NCBI RefSeq assembly: GCF_003703975.1
Contig: NZ_QTJY01000013.1
Location: 1 to 64,000 of the forward strand
DNA: 64,000 nt
Direction of reading: 5' to 3'
DNA from: Larkinella soli
GTDB lineage: Bacteria > Bacteroidota > Bacteroidia > Cytophagales > Spirosomataceae
Shown here: in pieces, positions 11,582 to 49,417 of the stretch
How the letters are laid out: the number at the start of each line of letters is the position of its first letter
Numbering within the stretch: position 1 is the first letter of the stretch
The notes under the pieces: generated by a model
Databases searched by the model: none
What the model was told of the DNA's origin: nothing
What the model saw: only the letters and a program-made list of their open reading frames with translations
Made by a program: the position numbers and the translations under genes

Positions 11582-12484
11582 TTACAACATCTTTACAAAC
11601 TTAATGCTCCCCGCATTATAAACCGGAACATAACCCCGGGCCGGAAAGTCGGCTTCGGTCAGACCGTCGGGGAGCCGGTGGGGATAATACCGGGTCCACT
11701 CGCCCGGCCGCAGCCAGAAGGTCTGCGGCTCAGTCAGTTCCTGCCGGACGAAGCCCAGTTTTTCGTAGCTCCGCCCGTCGGACCAGTCGCGGTCGGCGTA
11801 GGTCATGAGGTCGTCGGGGCGGTGCTCGCGGATGAACGCTTTGAGCAGCTTATCCAGCCCGCCCACCACCGTGCAGCCCCGAAGGCCGGAAAACCGCACC
11901 AGCTCGACCGAACGCGAAGGGCGACCGTCGCGCAGGACCGACCGCGGATAGCCGAAAGTGGCGACGGCCACCAGCAGTTCGGCCGGTCCGGGCGTCAGTG
12001 GCGGCCGGAAGGCCGGAGACAGCACCCGGAAATACCGCCCGGGCAGAAACAGGCCGTATTTGTATTTCGACTGCGTCACCACCTGGAGATGATTTTCTTC
12101 CAGAAACCGCGCTACTGTGGGCCGGTCGATCCGGCGAACCTGCGTCAGTCGGGCCGGGATTCGTTCCGAGAAGCCCGCCAGCGCCCGGAGCCGCGACAAC
12201 ACGACGGCCGGTTTCTGATACCAGACGTCTTCCCAGAGGTGAACGACCCGCAGCCCTTCGGCCGAAAACCGTTCGGAAAGCCGCTGGAAAAACCTGCTGA
12301 CATCGGCCCGTTGTCGGAAGAAAGAATACGTTTGAAAATCAATGCAATGAATTAAAACGGACGTGCCGGAGAGCCGAAACAGGCGGAATGGACTGAAAGC
12401 CCCGGCTTCGAACGGCTCGACGGCCGGGGCGTCCGATAAGGCTGCGAGGAGGTCCTCCGGAAATTTCGTGATCAAAGCGTCCAA
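11582..12484 (-). CDS. Predicted Vsr-like nuclease fold protein of unknown role
   Basis: This is a 300-residue protein. Around residues 70-100 the order (a basic helix, then VVHLWEDVWYQKP and a leucine-rich helix) recalls the end of Vsr-type very-short-patch endonuclease domains. The C-terminal half has TFGYPRSV, VELVRFSGLRGCTVVGG and MTYADRDWSDGRSYEKLGF. These resemble a domain I recall beside Vsr/EDxHD nuclease domains in phage and homing-type proteins, where SYADRRWS.G..Y..LGF recurs. A full catalytic set is not identifiable by eye. The gene overlaps the miaA operon at 4 nt spacing. The assignment is from remembered patterns, not a search. Confidence 0.5.
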   Translation of the reverse strand: MDALITKFPEDLLAALSDAPAVEPFEAGAFSPFRLFRLSGTSVLIHCIDFQTYSFFRQRADVSRFFQRLSERFSAEGLRVVHLWEDVWYQKPAVVLSRLRALAGFSERIPARLTQVRRIDRPTVARFLEENHLQVVTQSKYKYGLFLPGRYFRVLSPAFRPPLTPGPAELLVAVATFGYPRSVLRDGRPSRSVELVRFSGLRGCTVVGGLDKLLKAFIREHRPDDLMTYADRDWSDGRSYEKLGFVRQELTEPQTFWLRPGEWTRYYPHRLPDGLTEADFPARGYVPVYNAGSIKFVKML

Positions 12485-12595
12485 CGAATTGTCATAAAAA
12501 GATGTCTAAGCCCAAAGACAGGACAGCCGATGGTAGAAATCGCCCTGAAAACCATTATACTTGCCTGAATATCCATATCCTGCAACCCTAACCTG

Positions 12596-13345
12596 ATGAA
12601 CCGGCCACACCTGATGACGTACCGTCCGGCGCTGCTGTTTGTCGTTCTCCTGACGGCGGCCGGCACCGCCTTCGGACAGAATGTTGCCCGGACGACCTTC
12701 CGTGAGCAGGCCGTCGAGTACGCCCGCAACCGCTACCTGCGGTCGACCGCCGATCAGGCCCGGCTGTATAACGGGCCTGAATTTATCCCCTATTCGCCGA
12801 ACATCAAAGGTCACCCCTACCTCGACTCACTCTGGCAAACCGGCTCGGTTCAGTACGACGGGGTGCTTTACCGGAATATTTCCCTGCTGTACGACGTGGT
12901 CGGCGACGCGGTGATCGTGCCCCATTCCGACAGTCTGTACCGCATCCGGCTTCAAAGTATGCGGATCGGCGGTTTCGACCTGCCCGGCCATACCTTCATC
13001 CGGGTCGATGCCGACAGCGCCCGCAATTCCGGCCTGAAAACCGGCTTTTACGACCGGCTGTACGACGGCCGCAGGGTGGACCTATTGGCGAAACGGGTGA
13101 AAACCATCAAAACCGACTTCGTGCATGGTGCCGTAGTGGAGGAGTACCTCAACGGTGATACCTATTACATCGGCAGAAACGGCGTATTTACGCCCGTCCG
13201 GTCGAAGCGGGCGGTGCTGGCGATGTTCGCCGACCAGAAAAAACCGCTGCGGAAATACCTGCGCGAGAACCGCATCAAGTTCCGACGGGACCGCGAAGGC
13301 GCCATCGTGAAACTCACCCGACGTTATGACGAAACCAGCCAGTGA
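12596..13345 (+). CDS. Secreted protein of a TonB/DUF4249 cluster
   Basis: The 249-residue product starts with a signal peptide (LMTYRPALLFVVLLTAAGTAFG, cleavage before QN) and is otherwise soluble and basic. No known domain is recognised. It carries several aromatic and Asp/Gly turns (NISLLYDVVGDAVIV, FYDRLYDGRRVDLLAK) that suggest a beta-rich fold. It heads a four-gene plus-strand cluster, and its TGA overlaps the ATG of the TonB receptor gene in TGATG, so translation is coupled. A role in the uptake or surface assembly served by that receptor is inference only. Confidence 0.65.
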   Translation: MNRPHLMTYRPALLFVVLLTAAGTAFGQNVARTTFREQAVEYARNRYLRSTADQARLYNGPEFIPYSPNIKGHPYLDSLWQTGSVQYDGVLYRNISLLYDVVGDAVIVPHSDSLYRIRLQSMRIGGFDLPGHTFIRVDADSARNSGLKTGFYDRLYDGRRVDLLAKRVKTIKTDFVHGAVVEEYLNGDTYYIGRNGVFTPVRSKRAVLAMFADQKKPLRKYLRENRIKFRRDREGAIVKLTRRYDETSQ

Positions 13346-16119
13346 TGATGCCCAATTCCTACCGAGCCCTTCTCCTGCTTTTCTGCCTGACGCTCCCGCT
13401 TTCTGCGGCCGTCGGCCAGTCGAACGACGACCGGCCGATTCAGCGTAATTTTTCGGGCCTGAACTTCCGGCAGTTCGTCGGGGAAATCGAATCGCAGAGC
13501 GACTACCGGTTCTACTTCAACCCGCGCGACGTCGACAGCCTGCGCGTCGATGTTCAGGGCAATAACCGCCGGCTGCCCGCCCTGCTCTCCGAAATTCTGG
13601 GTCCCAAAAATCTCTATTTCGCCATCGACGCCCGGAAGCGGGTGTTCATCACCGCCGAGCGGGGCATCCGGACGGAACTTCCCATCGGCTTTTCGGATCG
13701 CGGCAGCGGCCCGGGTGACGCCGACACGAACGTGGTCGACTATCTGGCCGAAAAGGAACAACGACGCATCACGCTCGAAACCCGCCTGTTCGAAATCGGC
13801 CGGCGGACGAATCCCATCCGCCCCGGTACGGCCAACCTGGCCGGCCACATCCGCAATGCGGCCTCGGGCGAACCCGTGATCGGCGTGGCGGTGTACATCG
13901 AAAAACCACGCATCGGCGTTCTGACCGACCAGTTCGGCTACTACTCGATCACACTGCCCCGCGGGCGGCATGAGCTGAAAATCCGAAGCATCGGTATGAA
14001 AGACACCCGGCGCCAGATTCTGCTCTATAACGAAGGCAAGCTCGACATCGAAATGGAGGACGACGTCATTCCCCTCCGGGAGGTGGTGATCGAAGCCGAG
14101 AAGGACGTGAACGTCTCCGGGATGCAGATGGGCCTGGAACGGCTCGATATCCGGACGCTGAAGCAGGTGCCGACGGCTTTCGGCGAAGCCGACCTGCTGA
14201 GGGTGGTGCTGACGCTGCCGGGCGTCAAATCGGTCGGTGAAAGCAGCGTCGGCCTCAACGTACGGGGCGGCTCCACCGACCAGAACCTGATCCTGTACAA
14301 CGACGCGACCATCTACAATCCCTCCCACCTGTTCGGGTTCTTCTCGGCCTTCAACCCGGACATGATCAAGAACGTCGAGTTGTATAAAAGCGGTATTCCG
14401 TCGCGCTACGGCGGCCGGCTTTCGTCGGTGCTGGAGGTAACCACCCGCGACGGCAACAAGAAAAAGCTGGCCGGCTCGGGCGGCATCGGGCTGCTGACGG
14501 GGCGCCTGACGCTCGAAGGGCCGATCATAAAGGAAAAATCCTCTTTTCTGATCGGAGCACGTTCGACCTATTCCGACTGGCTGCTCCGGAATCTGAAAAA
14601 CCGGGCCTTCCAGAACAGCGCGGCCTCGTTCTATGACCTCAACGCCCACATTACACACGAGTTCAGCGAGAAAAACACGATTTATCTGACCGGTTATCTT
14701 AGCCGGGACCGGTTCCGGCTCAACAGCGACACCGCCTATCAGTACCGGAATCAGAACGCATCCCTGAAGTGGAAACACATCTTCAATCCCAAACTGTACA
14801 GTGTCTTTACGACCAGTTACAGCGGCTACCGGTACAGTGTGTCGAGCGACCGGAATCCGGTCAACGCCTATCAACTGGACTTCGGCATCGAGCAGTATAC
14901 CTTCAAAACCGACTTCAACTACTATCCCACCGCCCGGCATACCCTGGACTTCGGCCTGAGTTCGACCCTGTACAAACTCCGGCCGGGTAACTACCAGCCG
15001 CTGGGTTCCGAAAGCCTGATCCGGCCGGAGGTGGTCTCGCCCGAGCAGGGGCTGGAAACCGCCCTGTATGCCGGCGACCGCTTCGACATCTCGCCCCGGC
15101 TGTCGATCAGCTTCGGCCTGCGGTATTCGCTGTTCAACTACCTCGGCCCGAAAAACCTCTTCGTGTATCCGACCGGCAGCCGGATGACCGAAGCCAACAT
15201 CCGCGACACGCTCTCCTACGGAGCCGGAAAGAACATCCAGACCTACCACGGCCCCGAATACCGTATTTCGGCCCGGTATGCCTTTACGTCCGATGCCTCC
15301 ATCAAGCTCAGCTACAACCGGATGCGGCAATACATCCATATGCTGTCGAACACGACGTCGATGGCCCCTACCGACATCTGGAAGCTCAGCGACCCCAACA
15401 TTCGCCCCCAGGTCGGCGACCAGTATTCCATCGGCCTGTATAAAAACCTGAAAAACAATACCATCGAAACCTCGGTCGAAGCGTACTACAAAACCATGCA
15501 GAACATGCTGGACTTCCAGAGCGGGGCCACCCTCATCATGAACCAGCACCCTGAAACGGAGGTCGTCCGGGCGGAGGGGCTGGCCTATGGGGTCGAGTTT
15601 CTGGTTAAAAAGCTGACCGGCCGGTTCAACGGCTGGCTCAGTTACACCTACGCCCGCACCTTCCTGCGCGTCGACCGGAGCATTCCGCAGGAGAACATCA
15701 ACCGGGGTGACTATTACCCGAGCAATTTCGATAAACCGCACGACGTCACCTGGGTCGGAAATTACCGCATCAACCGCCGGTTCAGCATCTCCCTGAATTT
15801 TACCTACAGCACCGGTCGGCCGATCACGCTGCCGCTGGCGAAATATGAACTGGGCGGTTCGCAGCGGGTTTACTACTCCGAACGGAACCGGTACCGCATC
15901 CCGGATTACTACCGCTCGGACCTGTCGCTGAACGTCGAAGGCAACCACCGCGTCCGGAAGCTGGCCCACAGTTCGTGGACCTTCGCCGTGTATAACCTGA
16001 CCGGCCGCCGTAACGCCTACTCGGTCTATTTCAGCTCCTTAGGCGGGGTGGTGCGGGGGTATAAACTGTCGATCTTCGGGCAGCCGATTCCAACGGTGAC
16101 CTATAATTTCAAATTCTGA
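13345..16119 (+). CDS. TonB-dependent outer-membrane receptor with STN domain
   Basis: This is a TonB-dependent outer-membrane receptor of 924 residues. It has a signal peptide (ALLLLFCLTLPLSAAVG) and a secretin/TonB short N-terminal domain at about 35-115. A carboxypeptidase-regulatory-like beta sandwich follows at about 168-235 (LAGHIRNAASGEPVIGVAVY). The plug domain has LNVRGGSTDQNLILYNDATIY and is followed by a 22-strand-type barrel. The STN domain suggests signalling through an anti-sigma factor, but none is adjacent. The ATG at 13345 was chosen over the GTG at 13342 because it forms the TGATG overlap; a third ATG follows at 13348. The transported substrate is unknown. The paired DUF4249 gene begins 3 nt downstream. 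Confidence 0.88.
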   Translation: MMPNSYRALLLLFCLTLPLSAAVGQSNDDRPIQRNFSGLNFRQFVGEIESQSDYRFYFNPRDVDSLRVDVQGNNRRLPALLSEILGPKNLYFAIDARKRVFITAERGIRTELPIGFSDRGSGPGDADTNVVDYLAEKEQRRITLETRLFEIGRRTNPIRPGTANLAGHIRNAASGEPVIGVAVYIEKPRIGVLTDQFGYYSITLPRGRHELKIRSIGMKDTRRQILLYNEGKLDIEMEDDVIPLREVVIEAEKDVNVSGMQMGLERLDIRTLKQVPTAFGEADLLRVVLTLPGVKSVGESSVGLNVRGGSTDQNLILYNDATIYNPSHLFGFFSAFNPDMIKNVELYKSGIPSRYGGRLSSVLEVTTRDGNKKKLAGSGGIGLLTGRLTLEGPIIKEKSSFLIGARSTYSDWLLRNLKNRAFQNSAASFYDLNAHITHEFSEKNTIYLTGYLSRDRFRLNSDTAYQYRNQNASLKWKHIFNPKLYSVFTTSYSGYRYSVSSDRNPVNAYQLDFGIEQYTFKTDFNYYPTARHTLDFGLSSTLYKLRPGNYQPLGSESLIRPEVVSPEQGLETALYAGDRFDISPRLSISFGLRYSLFNYLGPKNLFVYPTGSRMTEANIRDTLSYGAGKNIQTYHGPEYRISARYAFTSDASIKLSYNRMRQYIHMLSNTTSMAPTDIWKLSDPNIRPQVGDQYSIGLYKNLKNNTIETSVEAYYKTMQNMLDFQSGATLIMNQHPETEVVRAEGLAYGVEFLVKKLTGRFNGWLSYTYARTFLRVDRSIPQENINRGDYYPSNFDKPHDVTWVGNYRINRRFSISLNFTYSTGRPITLPLAKYELGGSQRVYYSERNRYRIPDYYRSDLSLNVEGNHRVRKLAHSSWTFAVYNLTGRRNAYSVYFSSLGGVVRGYKLSIFGQPIPTVTYNFKF

Positions 16120-39221: not shown

Positions 39222-39251
39222 TTGCTTATATAAATAAACTTATTAAATTTG
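39222..39251 (+). promoter_or_regulatory. Early promoter 1
   Basis: TTG at 39222-39224, a 19-nt spacer and TAAATTTG at 39244-39251 match the Bacteroidota promoter exactly in layout. The -7 box overlaps operator 1, so repressor binding would block initiation toward 39324. Confidence 0.65.
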
Positions 39252-39267
39252 TAAGAGTATTTACAAA
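39248..39267. promoter_or_regulatory. Repressor operator 1
   Basis: TTTGTAA (39248-39254), six bases, TTACAAA (39261-39267) is a perfect palindrome. It is identical in half-sites and spacing to operator 2 and sits between the divergent repressor and early genes. Confidence 0.75.
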
Positions 39268-39286
39268 AAGCCCATTTTCTGGGCTT
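39264..39286 (-). terminator. Terminator-like hairpin before the repressor
   Basis: AAGCCC and GGGCTT (39268-39273 and 39281-39286) flank a 7-nt loop, and on the minus strand the hairpin is followed by a T run. It could stop transcription entering the repressor gene from outside, or act as an attenuator of the early transcript. Confidence 0.5.
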
Positions 39287-39323
39287 CTCCATTAGACTGC
39301 TTTCAAATATAATAAATTTACTT

Positions 39324-39629
39324 ATGGAGACACAAAAAAAATCGCAGCGTGAACGACTTCTTGAGTTAACGGCCGAAATGGGAATTACGGCCAACGAAGC
39401 GTATTCTATCCTAATTCCCAGGCTGAATGAAAGCGGAATGAAGCCGAAACGGGCACGGGAGTATTCCTATTCCGTTTTACATAACGTCTATTCGGGTTTA
39501 ACCGAAGATGACAATGTTCTAATTATGCTTGAAGTCGTTCATAACGAAATGAAGGGTGGAAAGGATCCTAGACTCACCCAAGTAGCCCATCACCTCCAGC
39601 AGGCTCGTCGCGCATACGCCGGAGAATAA
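39324..39629 (+). CDS. First early gene, unknown function
   Basis: The 101-residue basic protein is mostly helical (RLLELTAEMGITANEAYSI, then RLNESGMKPKRAREYSYSVL in part) and has no clear helix-turn-helix, so a Cro role is only a suggestion from position. It lies immediately behind early promoter 1 and divergent from the repressor gene, the place usually held by a Cro-like or anti-repressor gene. Confidence 0.6.
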   Translation: METQKKSQRERLLELTAEMGITANEAYSILIPRLNESGMKPKRAREYSYSVLHNVYSGLTEDDNVLIMLEVVHNEMKGGKDPRLTQVAHHLQQARRAYAGE

Positions 39630-39668
39630 ATCTAGCCGATATTTTTTTGCTCTTTTTTATAAGTATGC

Positions 39669-39700
39669 TTGACAATTAGTTTTAAATTTATTTAAATTTG
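39669..39700 (+). promoter_or_regulatory. Early promoter 2
   Basis: TTGACA begins at 39669, and TAAATTTG at 39693-39700 follows with 21 nt between TTG and TA. This is an excellent -33/-7 match, with the -7 box overlapping operator 2. Confidence 0.75.
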
Positions 39701-39716
39701 TAAACATACTTACAAA
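39697..39716. promoter_or_regulatory. Repressor operator 2
   Basis: TTTGTAA (39697-39703), six bases, TTACAAA (39710-39716) repeats operator 1 in half-site, spacing and position relative to the -7 box. It controls the main early operon starting at 39780. Confidence 0.75.
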
Positions 39717-39779
39717 CACAAACCCCGACGAATAGCCGGGGCTGTGGAGCGAAAAAAAATACTTAAAGCGATCAAAGCT

Positions 39780-40067
39780 ATGAAAAACTTCACTCTCCAA
39801 CAACTGGCTGATCTGGGAGAAGCCGGGGAAAACGAAAAAGCCGCCGACCTGCTGAATCCGGTGCTGGAACGCGTCAAACAGGCCACCGGCGCTGTGGACA
39901 TCGAGCAGTTCGACGACGTGACGTTCCACTGCTTTCTGAAAGTCGGTGACCCGCTGAATCACCCGCCCGTCAAGGTCCGCTTCCAGCCGGACAACACGCT
40001 CGAAGCCGTCGAAGTCTGGCTGATCGAAGAGTGCAACTACGCTTTCAACCGCGAATACGCCTACTGA
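39780..40067 (+). CDS. Small early protein, unknown
   Basis: The 95-residue acidic protein from ATG 39780 (a GTG at 39744 would add 12 residues) has a helical N terminus (TLQQLADLGEAGENEKAADL) and a beta-rich middle (DDVTFHCFLKVGDPLNHPPV). No family is recognised. It is the first gene behind operator-controlled promoter 2. A GC-rich hairpin precedes it at about 39722-39741. Confidence 0.6.
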   Translation: MKNFTLQQLADLGEAGENEKAADLLNPVLERVKQATGAVDIEQFDDVTFHCFLKVGDPLNHPPVKVRFQPDNTLEAVEVWLIEECNYAFNREYAY

Positions 40068-40078
40068 TCCTCCAACCC

Positions 40079-40094
40079 GGCCCCGCAAGGGGCC
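40079..40094. terminator. GC hairpin with GCAA tetraloop between early genes
   Basis: GGCCCC-GCAA-GGGGCC is a perfect stem-tetraloop between two early genes. It lacks a T run, so it is more likely an RNA-processing or stability element than a true terminator. Confidence 0.4.
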
Positions 40095-40109
40095 TAACCT
40101 CTACCCCTG

Positions 40110-40556
40110 ATGAACAAGATTGTCTTTACGGCCAAACGTGCCGATCTGTCCCTAATCATTTCCGAACTGCTCGACGAAGACTTCCGCGATAAACGCTTTG
40201 AGGAGCAGCGAATTTACTTTTATGCGGAGGCTCCGGGCGGAGTTCTGGGAATTGATGCTTCGGCAAAGCTTTGTGAAGTATTGAATGGGCCAGTGGAGGC
40301 CTGGAATCACACCCTGGAGCAAGATTGTCCGGTCCAGATTCCCGTCGTCAAAATCGAAATCTATGCCGACGAAAAGTACTACAGCCCCCTGCGCTCCTTC
40401 CCTATCCCGGTTTACCTGCTTCGTAAATACGTCGATCCGACTGAAGGCCTGACCGGTAGCGCCATCCTCCGGATGATTGATACCTACTTCGGGGGTTTCT
40501 CCGGAACGGTTGACTCGAAACCGATCGTCGCACCTCAAACCCTTCAGGCCGCATGA
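40110..40556 (+). CDS. Early phage protein, unknown
   Basis: The 148-residue acidic protein is predicted soluble with mixed strands (RIYFYAEAPGGVLGIDASAK, VVKIEIYADEKYY). It ends with LRMIDTYFGGFSGT. No family is recognised. Its stop overlaps the next start by ATGA, so the two are coupled in the early operon. Confidence 0.62.
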   Translation: MNKIVFTAKRADLSLIISELLDEDFRDKRFEEQRIYFYAEAPGGVLGIDASAKLCEVLNGPVEAWNHTLEQDCPVQIPVVKIEIYADEKYYSPLRSFPIPVYLLRKYVDPTEGLTGSAILRMIDTYFGGFSGTVDSKPIVAPQTLQAA

Positions 40557-40813
40557 TCCCGTTCCTCGTCTCCGTCGTGGCGATGCTCTTCATCGTCTGT
40601 CTGGCAGGCATGTTCTGCTCGTACATGAACTTCTTTCACCCCGGCTGGCAAGGTCGCCTTCGCCGGTGGTGGAAATCCCCCCGGGTCGCCGAATTCCGGT
40701 ATCGGCTAAGCCTCTTTCTGACGCTGCTGTTGTTCTGGGCCGGCTTTCTGGCGCTGATCTACTTCACCGATGCCCTGGGCTACTGGAACAATCATTCCTA
40801 CGCACGGCCATGA
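40553..40813 (+). CDS. Small membrane protein of the early operon
   Basis: The 86-residue protein has an N-terminal helix (PFLVSVVAMLFIVCLAGMFC) and a second (LSLFLTLLLFWAGFLALIYF), separated by a basic loop (RLRRWWKSPRVAEFRYR) that should face the cytoplasm, leaving both ends outside. Its role is unknown; superinfection exclusion is one option for small prophage membrane proteins. It overlaps both neighbours by ATGA. Confidence 0.65.
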   Translation: MIPFLVSVVAMLFIVCLAGMFCSYMNFFHPGWQGRLRRWWKSPRVAEFRYRLSLFLTLLLFWAGFLALIYFTDALGYWNNHSYARP

Positions 40814-41208
40814 ACCCAGCGACCCCGCACGAATCACCCAGCTGGGCGGCCAACCTGATCTTCTACGAGGTACGGGACAAACTACCCGGCGCGGAAACGA
40901 TGGACGAGCTTACGGCCGAATCGTGGGTGACATATCTGACCAGCCGAAACTTCGCTTTCAGCCTCCAGTGCCGCTATAAACCGCTTCATGGCTTTGATCT
41001 GGTCCGATTGGCCTGGAAGTACGCCCAGACCTTTTGTGACAGTCACCTGCCCACGGCCAACGCGGAAACCCGGCTGCTGTTCTACAGCGCCATCACCCGC
41101 AACCTGCTCTTGATGGTCAACGCCTCGACGGGCGTCAAAGATGCCAACTATTGCTGGTTTCTGGCCTTTGAATACGGCTTCCTAAGAATCTCCTATTGCC
41201 TCAACTGA
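40810..41208 (+). CDS. Early phage protein, unknown
   Basis: The 132-residue protein is helical and rich in Trp, Tyr and Phe (HGFDLVRLAWKYAQTFCDSH, YCWFLAFEYGFLRISYC). No domain is recognised. It starts in an ATGA overlap with the membrane-protein gene, and its TGA overlaps the ATG of the next small gene (TGATG). The in-frame extension upstream to 40477 overlaps other genes and was rejected. Confidence 0.6.
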   Translation: MNPATPHESPSWAANLIFYEVRDKLPGAETMDELTAESWVTYLTSRNFAFSLQCRYKPLHGFDLVRLAWKYAQTFCDSHLPTANAETRLLFYSAITRNLLLMVNASTGVKDANYCWFLAFEYGFLRISYCLN

Positions 41209-41357
41209 TGATGAAAGACTCGAACCGTCGAACGGATTACACCAATCGCTATCCCGGCGACGAAGACCCGAATACGGGCGAATACAAAGATCCGTGGTGG
41301 TTCTGGCCCCTGTGCCTGTTCTGGACCGCCGTGCTGATCTATGCCTGCTGTGCTTAA
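41208..41357 (+). CDS. 49-residue single-helix membrane protein
   Basis: ATG at 41208 gives MMKDSNRRTDYTNRYPG, an acidic middle, and a C-terminal helix (WWFWPLCLFWTAVLIYACC) followed by TAA at 41355-41357. It is coupled to the preceding gene by TGATG. It is a small tail-anchored protein of unknown function and a typical easily missed phage gene. Confidence 0.6.
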   Translation: MMKDSNRRTDYTNRYPGDEDPNTGEYKDPWWFWPLCLFWTAVLIYACCA

Positions 41358-41379
41358 TCCAACAAAACCCCACTGTATC

Positions 41380-41607
41380 ATGAAAACCTTATTGATTCTC
41401 CTGACGCTGGGCGTGATCGGCTGGTGTGCCGACCTCCGCACGAATCACTTTCACCCCGCCTATGTTGAAGCGCGCTTCGAGGGACTAAAAACGGCGGCTA
41501 CCGTGGACACCCAGAACTGGCCGGAAGCGGCCATCATCCTGATGCTGCTGGTACTGGCCTGCTTTATCATGGCGCCCTTCTTCTTTCAGGACAACCAAAA
41601 GCGGTAA
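41380..41607 (+). CDS. Small membrane protein of the early operon
   Basis: The 75-residue protein starts at ATG 41380 with a hydrophobic segment (MKTLLILLTLGVIGWCADL) and ends with a second helix (AAIILMLLVLACFIMAPFFF) and a basic tail. The first segment could be a signal peptide or a helix. Function is unknown. An in-frame ATG at 41341 was rejected as it lies inside the previous gene. Confidence 0.6.
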   Translation: MKTLLILLTLGVIGWCADLRTNHFHPAYVEARFEGLKTAATVDTQNWPEAAIILMLLVLACFIMAPFFFQDNQKR

Positions 41608-41619
41608 TCAGGCGCATTC

Positions 41620-42528
41620 ATGAGGTACTTTTTGCACGATACCGACGCATTCCAGGACGAGAAGATCACCGAACTCTTCATGGCTTTCGGCTATGAGGGT
41701 CTGGGCTTGTTCTATACGATTCTGGAACGGCTCGCGGCCCGGGAAAAACCGATCCGGACGGAAGTGCTGAAACGGCAGTTGGGGGTAGGCAAAAAGCTGG
41801 AGAAAATCTGGAAGTTTCTGGAAGAAATCGAACTGATTTCATCGGAAAACGGCGAAACTTTTAACAAAAGACTGGCAAACTTTCTCGAAACTTTCGACAA
41901 AAAACGAGAAAATACCAAAAAACGCGTCGCGCAATTCCGTGAAAATCAAGACTCTACTGAAAATGTAACGCGTTACAACCGCGTTCGTAACACTTCTAAT
42001 AGTAATAGTATAGAAGTAAATAAGGAAGATAATACAGAAGATAAATCTTCTGTTAATCCTCTCCTTTCAGTCGAGGATATACCGACCCCATCGGAAAAGC
42101 CGATGACTGAGGTACCCCAGAAACCTCCGGAGGCTCCCTCCCCCAGTTCCGGCTCCCCCCCTCCCAAAAAATCGAAATCGGTGGGCAATCACCTGTTCCG
42201 GACCTCGCCCTTCTACGACGAAGAGACGTTCGTCAAGGCGCTGGCCGGGACCGAATACGAAATCTACGATCTGCGCTTCTACCACCGCACGGTGAAAAAC
42301 TGGGCGGATTCGAAAAACGCCATGCGGGCCGACTGGATGGCCACAGCCCGAAACTTCATGCTATCTGACGCCCGGGAGGGCAAAGCCAAACTTCGATCTG
42401 ATCTGAGTCCCTATGGAAGCCAGCAACAATCCCAACCCTACCACGGCCGTCGCTACGACGACCGGAACGGCGACGCCCAGTTTGGAGCAGCAATTGATGC
42501 ACTTGCTGACGCTAAATACGGTAAGTGA
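41620..42528 (+). CDS. DUF4373 phage replication-type protein
   Basis: The 302-residue protein has an N-terminal DUF4373/Lin1244-type winged domain (residues about 1-100). It begins MRYFLHDTDAFQDEKITELF, continues with YEGLGLFYTILERLA, and is often found in phage replisome organisers. A Ser/Pro/Asn-rich disordered linker (about 110-190) follows, encoded by AT-rich codons. The C-terminal domain (SPFYDEETFVKAL, then ADWMATARNFML) resembles those of replication-initiation proteins. The protein likely loads or guides replication factors at the phage origin. The next gene overlaps its end by 116 bp if the long start is used. Confidence 0.72.
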   Translation: MRYFLHDTDAFQDEKITELFMAFGYEGLGLFYTILERLAAREKPIRTEVLKRQLGVGKKLEKIWKFLEEIELISSENGETFNKRLANFLETFDKKRENTKKRVAQFRENQDSTENVTRYNRVRNTSNSNSIEVNKEDNTEDKSSVNPLLSVEDIPTPSEKPMTEVPQKPPEAPSPSSGSPPPKKSKSVGNHLFRTSPFYDEETFVKALAGTEYEIYDLRFYHRTVKNWADSKNAMRADWMATARNFMLSDAREGKAKLRSDLSPYGSQQQSQPYHGRRYDDRNGDAQFGAAIDALADAKYGK

Positions 42529-43192
42529 GCTGCTGACGACGGTTCGCAACGAGCCGGCCCGGATGGCCCTGGCCGAGGTTCGCCAGAACACGTCGATGGA
42601 GAAGGCCCACCTCAAACCGAAGCTGTTCCAGCTAAAGGCCCGGGCCGATTTCGGACCCAAAACCCTGCACAAGCTGCTCTGCTTCATCCTAAAGACCTTC
42701 CAGGATAGTTTGAAGATCACCAACCCGAAAAACGAAATGTCCACTTCGGAAATCTTCAGCGCAGCCGGCATGCTGATGGAGAAGTACACCCACGAGAGCA
42801 TCCACGACTTTCTGATGGCCCTGAAGCTGTATGAGGAATCCGGCAAAGAGGTATATAACCATTTCAGCAAGAAGGTGCTGCTGAGTATCATGAACGCCTA
42901 CCTGAACACGAAGTCGGACTGGCTCGAACAGCTCTGGGACGCGGACAATTTCGGCAACTCAGGCGAAGATCTGGGCCGCTACCTCTCCGATGGACAACTG
43001 AAAGCGGATTATGACGCCCTGAAGCGCGGGGAGCCTACCGAGGCCATGATGCTCCGTCAGCAAACGGAGGACATCGGCAAAATGAAGGCGCTCAAGGAAC
43101 ATGATTTCCAGCTTTTCAAGATGAAATACTACCTCCAGCGGCAGAAGGCGCAGGAAACGACCTACACGGAAACCAACGATGAATCGAACTGA
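42413..43192 (+). CDS. Phage early protein, unknown
   Basis: The 259-residue protein has a Thr/Ala-rich unstructured N terminus and then a helical body (LLTLNTVSELLTTVRNEPAR, LLCFILKTFQDSLKI). It overlaps the preceding gene out of frame by 116 bp from ATG 42413. ATG 42497 is an alternative that reduces the overlap to 32 bp. A role in recombination or replication is suggested by its place between the DUF4373 and RuvC-like genes, but no motif shows it. Confidence 0.6.
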   Translation: MEASNNPNPTTAVATTTGTATPSLEQQLMHLLTLNTVSELLTTVRNEPARMALAEVRQNTSMEKAHLKPKLFQLKARADFGPKTLHKLLCFILKTFQDSLKITNPKNEMSTSEIFSAAGMLMEKYTHESIHDFLMALKLYEESGKEVYNHFSKKVLLSIMNAYLNTKSDWLEQLWDADNFGNSGEDLGRYLSDGQLKADYDALKRGEPTEAMMLRQQTEDIGKMKALKEHDFQLFKMKYYLQRQKAQETTYTETNDESN

Positions 43193-43727
43193 AATGGGCT
43201 ACCAGCTTCCCATTGCCCGGCAGACTCCGCTGATTGCGGGCATCGATCCCGACATCGATAAATCCGGTTTGGCCATCTGGTCCCGTAAAGATCGGAAGTA
43301 CACGGTTCTGAAGGTATTGCCCTTCGCCGAGTTGCAGGAAACCCTGTGCAGTTACGATCCGGCTGAGCTGTCGGTGGTGGTGGAAGCCGCCTGGCTGAAC
43401 GGCGATATCATGTACCGTCACCACGAGAAAAACCTGCCGAAGGATTTCAATAAATGGACCATCGAGGGTCGCTATGCCTACATGTTCAAACGCGGTACGG
43501 ACGTCGGCCGAAACTTCGCCGTCGGTCAGACACTGGTCCATTACCTGAAGGCCAACGGCTACGATGTGGAAGAAAGAAAGCCGGAGTCCAAAAAATGGGA
43601 TTCGGCAACCTTCCAGAGCCTGACCAAGCTAAAAATCAGGACCAATCAGGAAGTCCGAGACGCTGCAAAACTAGTATTCCAAAGAGATCAATCTTTACAT
43701 TTAAAATTATACTATAAATATATGTAA
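43179..43727 (+). CDS. RuvC-like RNase H-fold nuclease with a replaced C terminus
   Basis: The 182-residue protein has an RNase H-type core: AGIDPDIDKSGLAIWS (residues 20-35, first Asp), VVVEAAWLNGD (about 66-76, Glu), and TNQEVRDAAK near the end, the usual final acidic motif of phage RuvC-like resolvases. It overlaps the previous gene by 14 nt. Family members normally stop soon after this motif (LVFG-R). Here, from about nucleotide 43675, the codons turn sharply AT-rich and encode a short unrelated tail (SLHLKLYYKYM). The island beginning here has therefore replaced the stop, and activity may be kept because all acidic motifs remain. Confidence 0.72.
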   Translation: MNRTEMGYQLPIARQTPLIAGIDPDIDKSGLAIWSRKDRKYTVLKVLPFAELQETLCSYDPAELSVVVEAAWLNGDIMYRHHEKNLPKDFNKWTIEGRYAYMFKRGTDVGRNFAVGQTLVHYLKANGYDVEERKPESKKWDSATFQSLTKLKIRTNQEVRDAAKLVFQRDQSLHLKLYYKYM

Positions 43728-43903: not shown

Positions 43904-46900
43904 ATGAAAAAAATAGCCATATTCTTGATGTTAGCAAACTTTTCTATCTCATGTAATCATTATCCAACTACAAATGAAAGTAATTTTAATATTATTAAAA
44001 ACTGGCAATTTAATGGCTTGTTATTAGCATTAAAAGATACTAATGTCGATGTAAATGAAATAGCAATTGAATCCCTTGATGAAAGATGGCTTTCTGATTC
44101 GACAAAAAGAATTGACCTTCAATTTCTAGATTCGTTACAAAAAAATAAACTATTGGTTGGAATTGAATATGATGCATTGGTTCAAGACAAGCTTGAACCT
44201 GTAACTATAAAATCCCTTATCGATAAACTCATTTCTACAAATGATTTAAGCTTGCAAAATAGGGGCTTTTTCGCATTAAGTCGGCAGAAACTTGAGCCTT
44301 CAGCTATCAAAATATTGATCGATAAACTCAATCAGAGTACAGAAAATTCTCTACGAGAGAATGTGGCTTATGTATTAGGTCGGCAAAAACTTGAGCCATC
44401 AGCAATTAATACACTTATCGATAAGCTCAATTTGAACACTGGAACAGCCCTGCTAGACAATCTGGCAAATATATTAGGCCAGCAGGAACTTGAAACCTGG
44501 GCCATAAATGCCCTTATCCAAAAAATCAATTTGAATGCTGGATCATACATGCAATTAAATATAATTAATGTATTAGGTCGGCAAAAACTTGAACCCTCGG
44601 CAATTAATATACTTATTGATAAGCTCAATTTGTATGCTGGATCAGCTCAAATAAACAATATAGCTAATGCATTAAAACAGCAAAAACTTGAGTCCTCAGC
44701 TATCAATGAACTAATTGATAAATTCAATTCTGTGATTAACAGTAAAGTTGAAAGTAGCATAGCAGCGATATTAGGAGAGCAAGAGCTAGAACCCTCAGTC
44801 ATCAATGAATTAGTCAATAAGTTAAATTATACTACTAATGTAGATGTTGAAACAAGCATAGCAGTGGCATTAGGCAAGCAGAAACTTAGTTTTTCAGCCA
44901 TTAATGCATTAGTCAATAAGTTAAATTCTACGACTGATCTAGATGTTGTAAGAATTGTAGCCAAGGCATTAGGTAAGCAGGAGCTTGAATCCTCAGCCAT
45001 CAATGCATTAGTCAGTAAGCTTTATCAATTCCCATACGAGGAAATTTTTAGCGCAGATTTGACAACACTTAGACCAGACAGAGAATTAGCGATTGCATTA
45101 GGCAATCAAAAACTTGAATCTACGACCATCAATGCTTTAATAGATAAACTTAATGTAAATACGGAAGGAATTTTGCAATACAGAGTGGCTGAGGTATTAA
45201 GTCAGCAAGAACTTGAGCCCTTTGCTATTAACGAGTTAATTAATAAACTCAATTCTACCACTAATCTAAATCTTGAAAAAAATGTGTCACGGGCTTTAGG
45301 AGGGCAGGACCTTGAGCCCTCAGCCATCAACGCTTTAATTGATAAGCTCACTTCAAAGACTGACCATGCGGCAGCAGAATCTGTTGTTTTAGCACTAAAG
45401 AATCAGAAACTCGAGCCAGAGATTATAAATAAAGTAATTAATGAGACGAACAATATAGCTCAATTTAATAAAATTACTCAATTTGATTTCTTAGAATCAC
45501 AAAGCCCTGATGTAAAATGGTCAAACTATATGTTAGCAATATTACTGAATGAGAGATTAAATGCATTTATCCAAGAAGGCCAAGATTATGAAGATCAAGA
45601 TAGGTTTAAAATATTTTATCAAAGTGGCAGAACGACCAAATCTGACACGCCAGTTCGATGGCTATTTGGTATACCTACTGAAAGTATAATGAAAAAAATT
45701 TCTGCAGATGAATTAGAAAGTGAGTTATTTATTCTTACAGAATTTTGGCCGTCTTGCCAGAATTTTCCAATCGTTAAAGAAGAGTTTGCGAAGCAGGTGA
45801 CGGAATTAGCAACATATTTGGAAAATTCAAATAGTGATCATGTTTTAGATCTGTTAAAATTAAATGAAAAAAATTTTTCCGATGAAAATTTTAAGTCAAG
45901 AGCAAATAGTCTTAATAAAGTAATAAATGTAATTGAGAATAAAAAAAGCTGGATAAATAAGTTGATTTCCTTAATTCCTTGGGCAATTTCATTACATCTT
46001 CTCTTTTGGATAGCCTTACTATTTGCTTATCCAAATTCCCCAACAGTTCAAAGTATGTTTTTCTGGAATCCAGAAGTGTTAAAGTGGGGTGGACTTTTTT
46101 ATGTAAAGGCAGCATTAATTCATATTCCATTTTTAAGAAAGCGTATTTTATATCCCTTCCGAAATAGGCTGCTTGAGGATGCCCGTCTTGAAAGTTTCCG
46201 GGAAGATGCTTATTTCTCTGAATCAATAGTAAGGGTTGAGGCGAATGGCCAACATGAAACATTAATTGAACGCATTGCAAAGGAAGATAGAAAAATACTT
46301 TTAATTGGCGAATCTGGTTTGGGGAAAACCATGTATTTAAGAAAATTAGCCCAAACGTATTTAAATGATACAAATCGTTTAGCTGTTTACTTGAGGGCAT
46401 CAGAATGTAATAACGGGGTAGTGGAAGCAATCCAAGAAAAAGTTAAAGGGATCGCTCAGGATACAGATTTCTTAAAGCCTTTGATTTTTATCGGGGCAAT
46501 GGATGTCTTCATAGATGGACTTAATGAGGTAAGCCCTGATACACGGTCATATATTAGGAAGTTTCTTGGAGATTATGGCAAAGGCAAATGCATTGTAACA
46601 TCCCAGCCCATTCCCGACTTACCAAATGATATGAAGCAATTTACTTTATTGCCTTTAAACCAACAGCAATTAACTAATTTTCTTTTAAAACGAAATCAGC
46701 TAGAAGAAAGGCCTATCTCCGAAGCTTCTATTCATGCCTATTTAAGTAAAATGCTAAATCCAATATTACCAATGCAAGAATTAAAAGACAATGAGCGAAT
46801 TTTATCTAATCCGCTCGATTTATCTATAGTCGGGCAACTGCTTGCTTCAGGCATTACTCAACCGAACTTAAATCAATTACAGGAGAAGCTTTATCAGCAA

Positions 46901-47368
46901 ATGGCAGAGGCATACCATTCAGAACATACAAGGGAAGAAGGCAACTTTCCATTAAAAAACTTTTCTGAGAGGACTTACGAACATAGGCTAAATACTGACG
47001 ACAACTCTTTAGATGCAACAAACTATATGGATGAGATTGAATGTATGGCGAAGTTTAAGATGGTTTATAAAAGGGAAAACAAAGAGAGGATTGAATGGTT
47101 CTTCCGACACGATAAAATCCAGGACTTCTTCCTACTTCAAGCGTTTACAAATAAATCAGAGCGTCAGATTCTACATCTTGGCGATCCGAAATTTAGAGGT
47201 GTGTATTTCCTTTTGGCATTAAAATTACCATTTGATGATGCTCAACTACTTCGGGAACAAATTATCCAATACGGTGCAGACCATAATGATAATACAGTTA
47301 GTAATGAGTTCATAAAATTACTTCGGTCAAGGGCTGAAAAAATGAAGAATACACCAACGGGTTTATGA
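43904..47368 (+). CDS. HEAT-like-repeat membrane NACHT-type NTPase
   Basis: The 1154-residue protein begins with a lipoprotein-type signal (MKKIAIFLMLANFSISC). Residues 95-533 hold thirteen repeats, exactly 33 residues each except one of 43. A typical unit is QKLEPSAINALIDKLN, and pairs of helices are expected as in HEAT repeats. An alpha region (about 535-680) leads to a hydrophobic span at 684-708 and perhaps another at 727-745, then a basic turn. The NTPase has Walker A GESGLGKT (802-809) and Walker B DVFIDGLNEV (867-876), the NACHT form. A C-terminal helical region of about 180 residues follows. NACHT proteins are STAND-type switches, many of them in phage defence, but the repeats here lie N-terminal and topology is unclear. 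No operon partner overlaps. Confidence 0.78.
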   Translation: MKKIAIFLMLANFSISCNHYPTTNESNFNIIKNWQFNGLLLALKDTNVDVNEIAIESLDERWLSDSTKRIDLQFLDSLQKNKLLVGIEYDALVQDKLEPVTIKSLIDKLISTNDLSLQNRGFFALSRQKLEPSAIKILIDKLNQSTENSLRENVAYVLGRQKLEPSAINTLIDKLNLNTGTALLDNLANILGQQELETWAINALIQKINLNAGSYMQLNIINVLGRQKLEPSAINILIDKLNLYAGSAQINNIANALKQQKLESSAINELIDKFNSVINSKVESSIAAILGEQELEPSVINELVNKLNYTTNVDVETSIAVALGKQKLSFSAINALVNKLNSTTDLDVVRIVAKALGKQELESSAINALVSKLYQFPYEEIFSADLTTLRPDRELAIALGNQKLESTTINALIDKLNVNTEGILQYRVAEVLSQQELEPFAINELINKLNSTTNLNLEKNVSRALGGQDLEPSAINALIDKLTSKTDHAAAESVVLALKNQKLEPEIINKVINETNNIAQFNKITQFDFLESQSPDVKWSNYMLAILLNERLNAFIQEGQDYEDQDRFKIFYQSGRTTKSDTPVRWLFGIPTESIMKKISADELESELFILTEFWPSCQNFPIVKEEFAKQVTELATYLENSNSDHVLDLLKLNEKNFSDENFKSRANSLNKVINVIENKKSWINKLISLIPWAISLHLLFWIALLFAYPNSPTVQSMFFWNPEVLKWGGLFYVKAALIHIPFLRKRILYPFRNRLLEDARLESFREDAYFSESIVRVEANGQHETLIERIAKEDRKILLIGESGLGKTMYLRKLAQTYLNDTNRLAVYLRASECNNGVVEAIQEKVKGIAQDTDFLKPLIFIGAMDVFIDGLNEVSPDTRSYIRKFLGDYGKGKCIVTSQPIPDLPNDMKQFTLLPLNQQQLTNFLLKRNQLEERPISEASIHAYLSKMLNPILPMQELKDNERILSNPLDLSIVGQLLASGITQPNLNQLQEKLYQQMAEAYHSEHTREEGNFPLKNFSERTYEHRLNTDDNSLDATNYMDEIECMAKFKMVYKRENKERIEWFFRHDKIQDFFLLQAFTNKSERQILHLGDPKFRGVYFLLALKLPFDDAQLLREQIIQYGADHNDNTVSNEFIKLLRSRAEKMKNTPTGL
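44186..45502 (+). repeat. Thirteen tandem 99-bp coding repeats
   Basis: Units start at residues 95, 128, 161, 194, 227, 260, 293, 326, 359, 402, 435, 468 and 501 of the NACHT-type protein, so the period is 99 bp apart from one 30-bp insertion. At the DNA level the blocks near 44375-44435 and 44573-44633 are nearly identical and offset by 198 bp. This indicates repeat duplication by recombination. Confidence 0.85.
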
Positions 47369-48662: not shown

Positions 48663-48694
48663 TTGACAAGTAGGTAAGTTTTTGCTTACCTTTG
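48663..48694 (+). promoter_or_regulatory. hicAB promoter
   Basis: TTGAC begins at 48663, and TACCTTTG at 48687-48694 follows with 21 nt between TTG and TA, a close match to the Bacteroidota consensus. The hicA ATG is 36 nt downstream. Operator 2 covers the spacer and part of the -7 box. Confidence 0.8.
48673..48690. promoter_or_regulatory. hicAB operator 2
   Basis: GGTAAG-N6-CTTACC (48673-48678 and 48685-48690) is a perfect palindrome inside the promoter, overlapping the first bases of the -7 box. It is the likely binding site for the HTH tail of HicB. Confidence 0.72.
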
Positions 48695-48925: not shown

Positions 48926-48994
48926 CCCCTTCTGGGGATAAAATTGGGAAGGCTGCTATGTAGTCTTACTTTAACCATATTTTTAGCAGATTGT

Positions 48995-49417
48995 ATGAAA
49001 GCAAGGATGAGCAAAGCATTAACTGTTATCTTAGAAAGAGATGACGGCGAATTTTGGGGACGCATTGAGGCTCCCGACTTTCTACATGTAACCCAGGGGG
49101 CTACGGTAGCAATTGTAACTAAGAATCTGCGCGACCTGGTCGCCGATTCGCTGGAACACGAACTGAAAGACAAACCCGAATGGCAGGGAGTTACTGCCGA
49201 CACGATTCAGTTCGATTATGTTTACGATCTTCAATCTTTTTTCGAACGATTCAAAGAATTAAAAATGACAGCCATCGCCGAGCGTGCAGGATTGAACAAG
49301 AATCTTTTGCACCAATACGTGGCGGGCCATAAACATCCGAGTGAACAGCAGGCAAAGAAGATTGAAAATGCTGTTCACGCTCTGGCTGAGGAACTTAGAA
49401 AAGTCATCCTGGCGTAA
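48995..49417 (+). CDS. hicB: HicB family antitoxin with HTH domain
   Basis: The 140-residue antitoxin has an N-terminal partly degraded RNase H-type HicB domain (LTVILERDDGEFWGRIEAPDF cut short here, with GATVAIVTKNLRDLVADSLE). A C-terminal helix-turn-helix runs from about 86 to 140 (MTAIAERAGLNKNLLHQYV). The HTH represses the operon through the palindromes upstream of hicA. ATG 48995 was used; ATG 49007 in frame is an alternative that trims 4 residues. The gap of 79 nt from hicA is longer than in many hicAB pairs, leaving room for a second promoter. Confidence 0.85.
   Translation: MKARMSKALTVILERDDGEFWGRIEAPDFLHVTQGATVAIVTKNLRDLVADSLEHELKDKPEWQGVTADTIQFDYVYDLQSFFERFKELKMTAIAERAGLNKNLLHQYVAGHKHPSEQQAKKIENAVHALAEELRKVILA

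Follow-up and report, generated by a model that had tools for sequence, protein, structure and literature searches.

Two perfect copies of the palindrome TTTGTAA-N6-TTACAAA, located where a prophage begins on its left side within the window (the whole 64-kb stretch of DNA analysed here), raise the question of what they do there, and which protein reads them. The initial annotation had proposed two repressor operators that are fused to the -7 boxes of early promoters and together make up a complete lysogeny switch; this proved largely right but incomplete, in that a host SOS-type locus has the same operator and a second, host-encoded protein may bind. Both copies (O1 and O2; Table 1) are free of mismatches, the first four bases of each double as the TTTG in a TAAATTTG box, and each box is preceded by a TTG, at a spacing of N19 for O1 and N21 for O2. 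O1 lies between the gene for a phage-type HTH repressor and the divergently encoded first early gene, and O2 ahead of the main early operon, both as claimed. From these sequences and the comparisons below, we consider it highly probable that O1 and O2 serve as operators in a CI/Cro-type switch of a temperate phage, and that they are bound by the 201-residue repressor.

Table 1. Features of the switch region and early operon, in positions of the window
Feature	Position	Strand	Remarks
Repressor gene, 201 aa	38615..39220	-	CI/XRE-type HTH and long coiled-coil helix, without S24 peptidase
-33 TTG, Cro-like gene promoter	39222..39224	+	from sequence; TTG-N19-TAAATTTG
-7 box TAAATTTG, Cro-like gene promoter	39244..39251	+	
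Operator O1	39248..39267	.	TTTGTAA-GAGTAT-TTACAAA
Hairpin, predicted repressor leader	39266..39288	-	GAAGCCCA-GAAAA-TGGGCTTTTTG, terminator-like
Predicted repressor promoter	39304..39335	-	TTTG-N21-TATATTTG; faces Cro-like gene promoter
Cro-like first early gene, 101 aa	39324..39629	+	Cro role inferred from position
-33 TTG, early-operon promoter	39669..39671	+	
-7 box TAAATTTG, early-operon promoter	39693..39700	+	
Operator O2	39697..39716	.	TTTGTAA-ACATAC-TTACAAA
GC-rich hairpin, early-operon 5' leader	39717..39746	+	fold z -2.07
Early operon	39780..43727	+	small genes, then replication protein, then resolvase
DnaD/Lin1244-like replication protein	41620-42528		within early operon
RuvC-like resolvase	43179-43727		within early operon

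The promoters follow the grammar of the phylum: the consensus of the primary sigma factor in Bacteroides combines TAnnTTTG with a TTTG upstream of it, and the TAnnTTTG -7 box is also the consensus in Flavobacterium (PMC7366714, PMC9723704). The pattern TTG-N19-21-TAnnTTTG has seven matches in the 64 kb, both strands included, against a mean of 1.1 in shuffled sequence; the two claimed promoters and the predicted repressor promoter account for three of them. The region has just two good forward promoters, and each bears one of the palindromes. The predicted repressor promoter is located within the beginning of the Cro-like gene and would direct transcription toward O1; it and the Cro-like gene promoter (39222-39251) point at each other, ~40 bp apart; the repressor mRNA would start near 39298, hence O1 would lie inside the repressor leader. 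This head-on arrangement is unlike the layout of lambda. It resembles that of phages 186 and P2, in which the lytic and lysogenic promoters stand face to face, a few tens of bp apart, and the repressor acts on the lytic promoter. The comparison is by layout rather than by sequence kinship and, unlike 186 and P2, the window has promoters of the Bacteroidota type and one operator per promoter, the second being on the downstream early operon.

The repressor matches the Pfam families HTH_26 and HTH_3 above cut-off, and its PHROG assignment is that of a transcriptional regulator. In its AlphaFold model, a five-helix HTH (helices 15-80) is followed by a helix forming a coiled coil (105-148), the rest being disordered; the HTH matches the N-terminal domains of SinR, P22 c2 and 434 Cro in the PDB with probabilities of 0.97-1.0, albeit with Foldseek E-values of only 0.03-0.2. 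It thus resembles the CI proteins of lambda, 434 and P22, and the half-sites of 434 operators are likewise spaced by N6. Unlike these proteins, it has no match to the S24 peptidase family (PF00717) and is absent among the genome's five hits to that family; its C-terminal part is modelled as coiled coil and disorder rather than an S24 domain, and its operators are single rather than tandem. No repressor relative above 33-39% identity was found in IMG/VR or in phage records; among 390 order-level genomes there is no close relative beyond that in genome G198, and a scan of the genome collection yielded only a contig of G153.

Lacking an S24 peptidase, the repressor cannot be cleaved in the manner of lambda CI, and its release must come either from an antirepressor or from outside. 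The candidate for the former is an AntA/AntB-family gene (C12:73645-74379, equivalent to L004:13645-14379) just 3' of the integrase, which is of the tyrosine-recombinase type (C12:74376-75821). There is a precedent in the Gifsy-type prophages of Salmonella, whose non-cleavable repressors are released by antirepressors under LexA control (PMC3121763): both there and here, a repressor without a cleavage domain is accompanied by an antirepressor-type gene. The protein families differ, however, and a role for AntA in this prophage, or SOS control of it, would be putative.

We infer binding, repression and promoter interference from the sequences, their positions and the conserved layout. A dimer of the repressor would bind O1 and O2 and, once bound, would mask each start site together with the TTTG in the -7 box, blocking the polymerase; in a lysogen, the promoters of the Cro-like gene and of the early (replication) operon would both be shut. 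The facing repressor and Cro-like promoters would interfere head-on, giving a two-state switch, and an occupied O1 would remove opposing polymerases and so favour repressor synthesis.

For comparison, we collected 16 related early regions from members of the same bacterial family, with the RuvC-like protein as an anchor (41-44% identity); in sister genera, syntenic prophages keep the order repressor, small Cro-like gene and early operon. Some of the 16 have S24-type repressors, and six (L053, L060, L062, L069, L070 and L072) have peptidase-free ones, most of them alignable with that of the window. Each of these six has a private sequence common to both intergenic regions, that is, the one between the repressor and Cro-like genes and the one preceding the early operon: ATAACATTTGTTAT in L053, TAATATTTATTA in L060, AATCATTTGATTA in L062, ACAATACTTGT in L069, a TTACCATTTGCTTA-like sequence in L070 and, weakest of all, a 10-base match in L072. 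In most of the syntenic prophages, a palindrome peculiar to that phage is repeated ahead of both early promoters; it overlaps them as in the window and, in the clearest examples, reaches the -7 box. A perfect dyad with 5-bp arms is repeated in both intergenic regions of 6 of the 14 switches scored, the rest being looser, shorter or imperfect. Facing TAnnTTTG boxes occur in five switches, including those of L053, L062, L070 and L071.

The operators also appear to follow the phage repressor. L053 and L060 have a common recognition helix, GILRQTLYY, and near-identical operators (ATAACATTTGTTAT and TTAATATTTATTAT), whereas in the other relatives both helix and operator differ; the comparable cases are few, namely one matching pair and several non-matching ones, and none of the relatives found shares the helix of the window repressor. 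The window operator begins on the TTTG and lies downstream of the -7 box, whereas those of L053, L060, L062 and L070 lie upstream and end on its TA. Since the register differs, the conserved feature is the placing of an operator on the box rather than the register itself, and reuse of the TTTG by the operator, as initially described, is true of the window but is not a general rule: in the relatives it is the other end of the operator that supplies the TA of TAnnTTTG. The window phage is thus no straightforward replica of the phages with which it was compared. In the phage of L053, a third operator cluster, a tandem pair, lies 41 kb away (L129:2744-2862; G198:C1:2244243-2244361), where it precedes a GIY-YIG gene, ahead of a different operon of that phage, and keeps the register of the switch operators relative to the -7 box.

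Of the lysogeny switch proposed initially, the phage-type repressor, the divergent small early gene and the two-operator layout, found again in syntenic prophages with other operator sequences, are upheld; its completeness is not, as the repressor is without an S24 peptidase and the means of its release lies outside these 500 bp. Among the papers searched, none dealt with the operators of Bacteroidota prophage switches. The set amounts to a readable family of switches written in the phylum's own promoter grammar, in which operator, -7 box and repressor helix can be compared.

That O1 and O2 are chance AT-rich palindromes with no regulatory role is hardly credible. Single palindromes of the 7-6-7 form are common enough (4.6 per shuffled window, against 14 perfect ones in the real window), but TTTGTAA is the sole arm among the 14 to be present twice, and no arm was repeated in any of 200 dinucleotide shuffles of the window; furthermore, both copies are on promoters and the layout is kept in relatives. 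The rest of the element (C12, 36-100 kb), where the initial annotation had suggested looking for further copies, contains no other exact or close site, all others having at least two mismatches in the 14 fixed bases, and genome-wide there is only one further locus, rather than many copies in unrelated regions. A degenerate site at 39656-39677, overlapping the -33 element of the second promoter, has four mismatches and is not claimed; a scan of IMG/VR for TAAATTTGTAA-N6-TTACAAA gave 30 contigs, each with a single copy and lacking a repressor homologue, which are probably chance matches. It is conceivable, if very improbable, that the 101-residue Cro-like protein is the main binder, or that it competes with the repressor as Cro does with CI. 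Autoregulating Cro proteins use the same operators as CI, O1 and O2 lie on the promoters of its own gene and of the early operon, and the position of the gene is conserved; nevertheless, the operators of the relatives track the recognition helix of the repressor (in few comparable cases), and the small protein has no Pfam or PHROG family and no recognized HTH family. A common Cro ancestry with G198 was considered and dropped, as no alignment was obtained; it is the equivalently placed gene of L069 that matches (45% identity over 56 aa, E 2e-10), itself of no assigned family.

The more serious competitor to the phage repressor is encoded by the host. The exact 20-bp operator has a single further copy in the genome, at C7:156909, and the core TGTAA-N6-TTACA occurs in exactly five places in 6.92 Mb: the two phage operators and three sites (C7:156911, 156934 and 157030) between the genes for a DinB-type, error-prone polymerase and an XRE-S24 regulator, which is followed by an SRAP gene. 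A reversed-pattern control gave one match. With a fourth site that lies between these three, the intergenic region has four copies of GTAA-N6-TTAC, three of them 22-23 bp apart. The regulator matches HTH_3 above cut-off and PF00717 slightly below it (E 4e-4), and the locus resembles the non-canonical LexA SOS loci reported from Bacteroidetes, where phage-like S24 regulators of the SOS response are found beside error-prone polymerases (PMC8565304). The CI-type HTH, the divergent polymerase and the repeated palindromes between the two genes all agree with that description; the motif does not, the published operators being CTAA-N5-TTAG or GGA-N5-TCC, with a diverged TTAC-N5-GTAA in Elizabethkingia, whereas CTAA-N5-TTAG is absent from the C7 locus and GTAA-N6-TTAC is there instead. 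The host has a second XRE-S24 regulator, L052 (G000:C3:232700-233497), 65% identical to the first; its upstream region has direct repeats, AACTATTTTTAACAT, rather than TGTAA-N6-TTACA.

O1 and O2 might accordingly be mainly SOS boxes for the host regulator, the phage protein being a helper or binding elsewhere. The distribution of the core motif, the cluster of sites beside dinB and the SOS-typical combination of dinB, S24 regulator and SRAP (cf. PMC8565304) are in its favour, as is the lack of a peptidase in the phage repressor. Moreover, when the intergenic regions of 14 phages were compared with the upstream regions of 19 host S24 genes (266 pairs), a perfect dyad with arms of at least 5 bp was present in both phage intergenic regions and in the host for a single pair, that of the window phage with its own host. 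We nonetheless regard this reading as unlikely. In the relatives, the phage operators differ from those of the host S24 genes, which also disposes of the idea that a phage operator is always modelled on the host SOS box, and they appear to track the phage repressor; the phage family often uses xTAA-N6-TTAx sites (L060, for one, carries GTAATATTTATTAC, and homologous phage repressors commonly use such sites), making convergence on GTAA not very improbable; and the recognition helices of the phage and host proteins differ (SSASIYMVKNG and THPTLSKYEKG, respectively).

With the phage repressor as the primary binder of O1 and O2, the host regulator probably can bind them as well, since its own locus has the same operator core, and may in this way link the prophage to DNA damage. 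Such co-repression, suggested by the exclusivity of the motif, is plausible; the stronger proposal, that the prophage has converged on the host SOS operator, with a non-cleavable phage repressor and a cleavable host S24 regulator at one site, we advance only tentatively. If it is true, damage to the DNA would act on the prophage even though its own repressor is blind to it, and in lysogens the host dinB could in turn be kept down by the phage repressor. GIL01 and other phages are known to be repressed by host LexA (PMC4551915), and the early promoters of the window phage likewise carry an apparent host SOS operator; unlike GIL01, however, the window has a clear phage repressor, its relatives do not share the host operator, and host binding is only putative. 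The switch is a new member of the known CI/Cro kind, with a shared host SOS operator as a possible new twist; a LexA-coupled prophage would then exist in a phylum whose SOS regulators were described only in 2021.

Some further features of the region may be recorded. The terminator-like hairpin of the predicted repressor leader stands between the repressor promoter and O1, and has a fold z-score of -3.84, none of 200 shuffles being equally stable. Stems similar to the GC-rich hairpin of the early-operon leader occur in the same place in L053, L060 and L062, with a CTACCAACA-like loop in the last two. Between the early and late prophage genes, 43904-47368 encodes a 1154-residue protein that combines HEAT repeats with a STAND/NACHT-like AAA NTPase; it gave no match in PADLOC and is possibly defence cargo. 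A second HTH gene of the prophage (48944-49417), the N-terminal part of whose product is HicB-like by eye, has its own TTG-N21-TAnnTTTG at 48663. Inside or adjoining the prophage, to the right of the integrase, there are a gene for an HATPase protein with REase_II-type PADLOC matches (L004:16887-19223) and methyltransferase or restriction-type genes (L005:496-2109 and 12415-14935).
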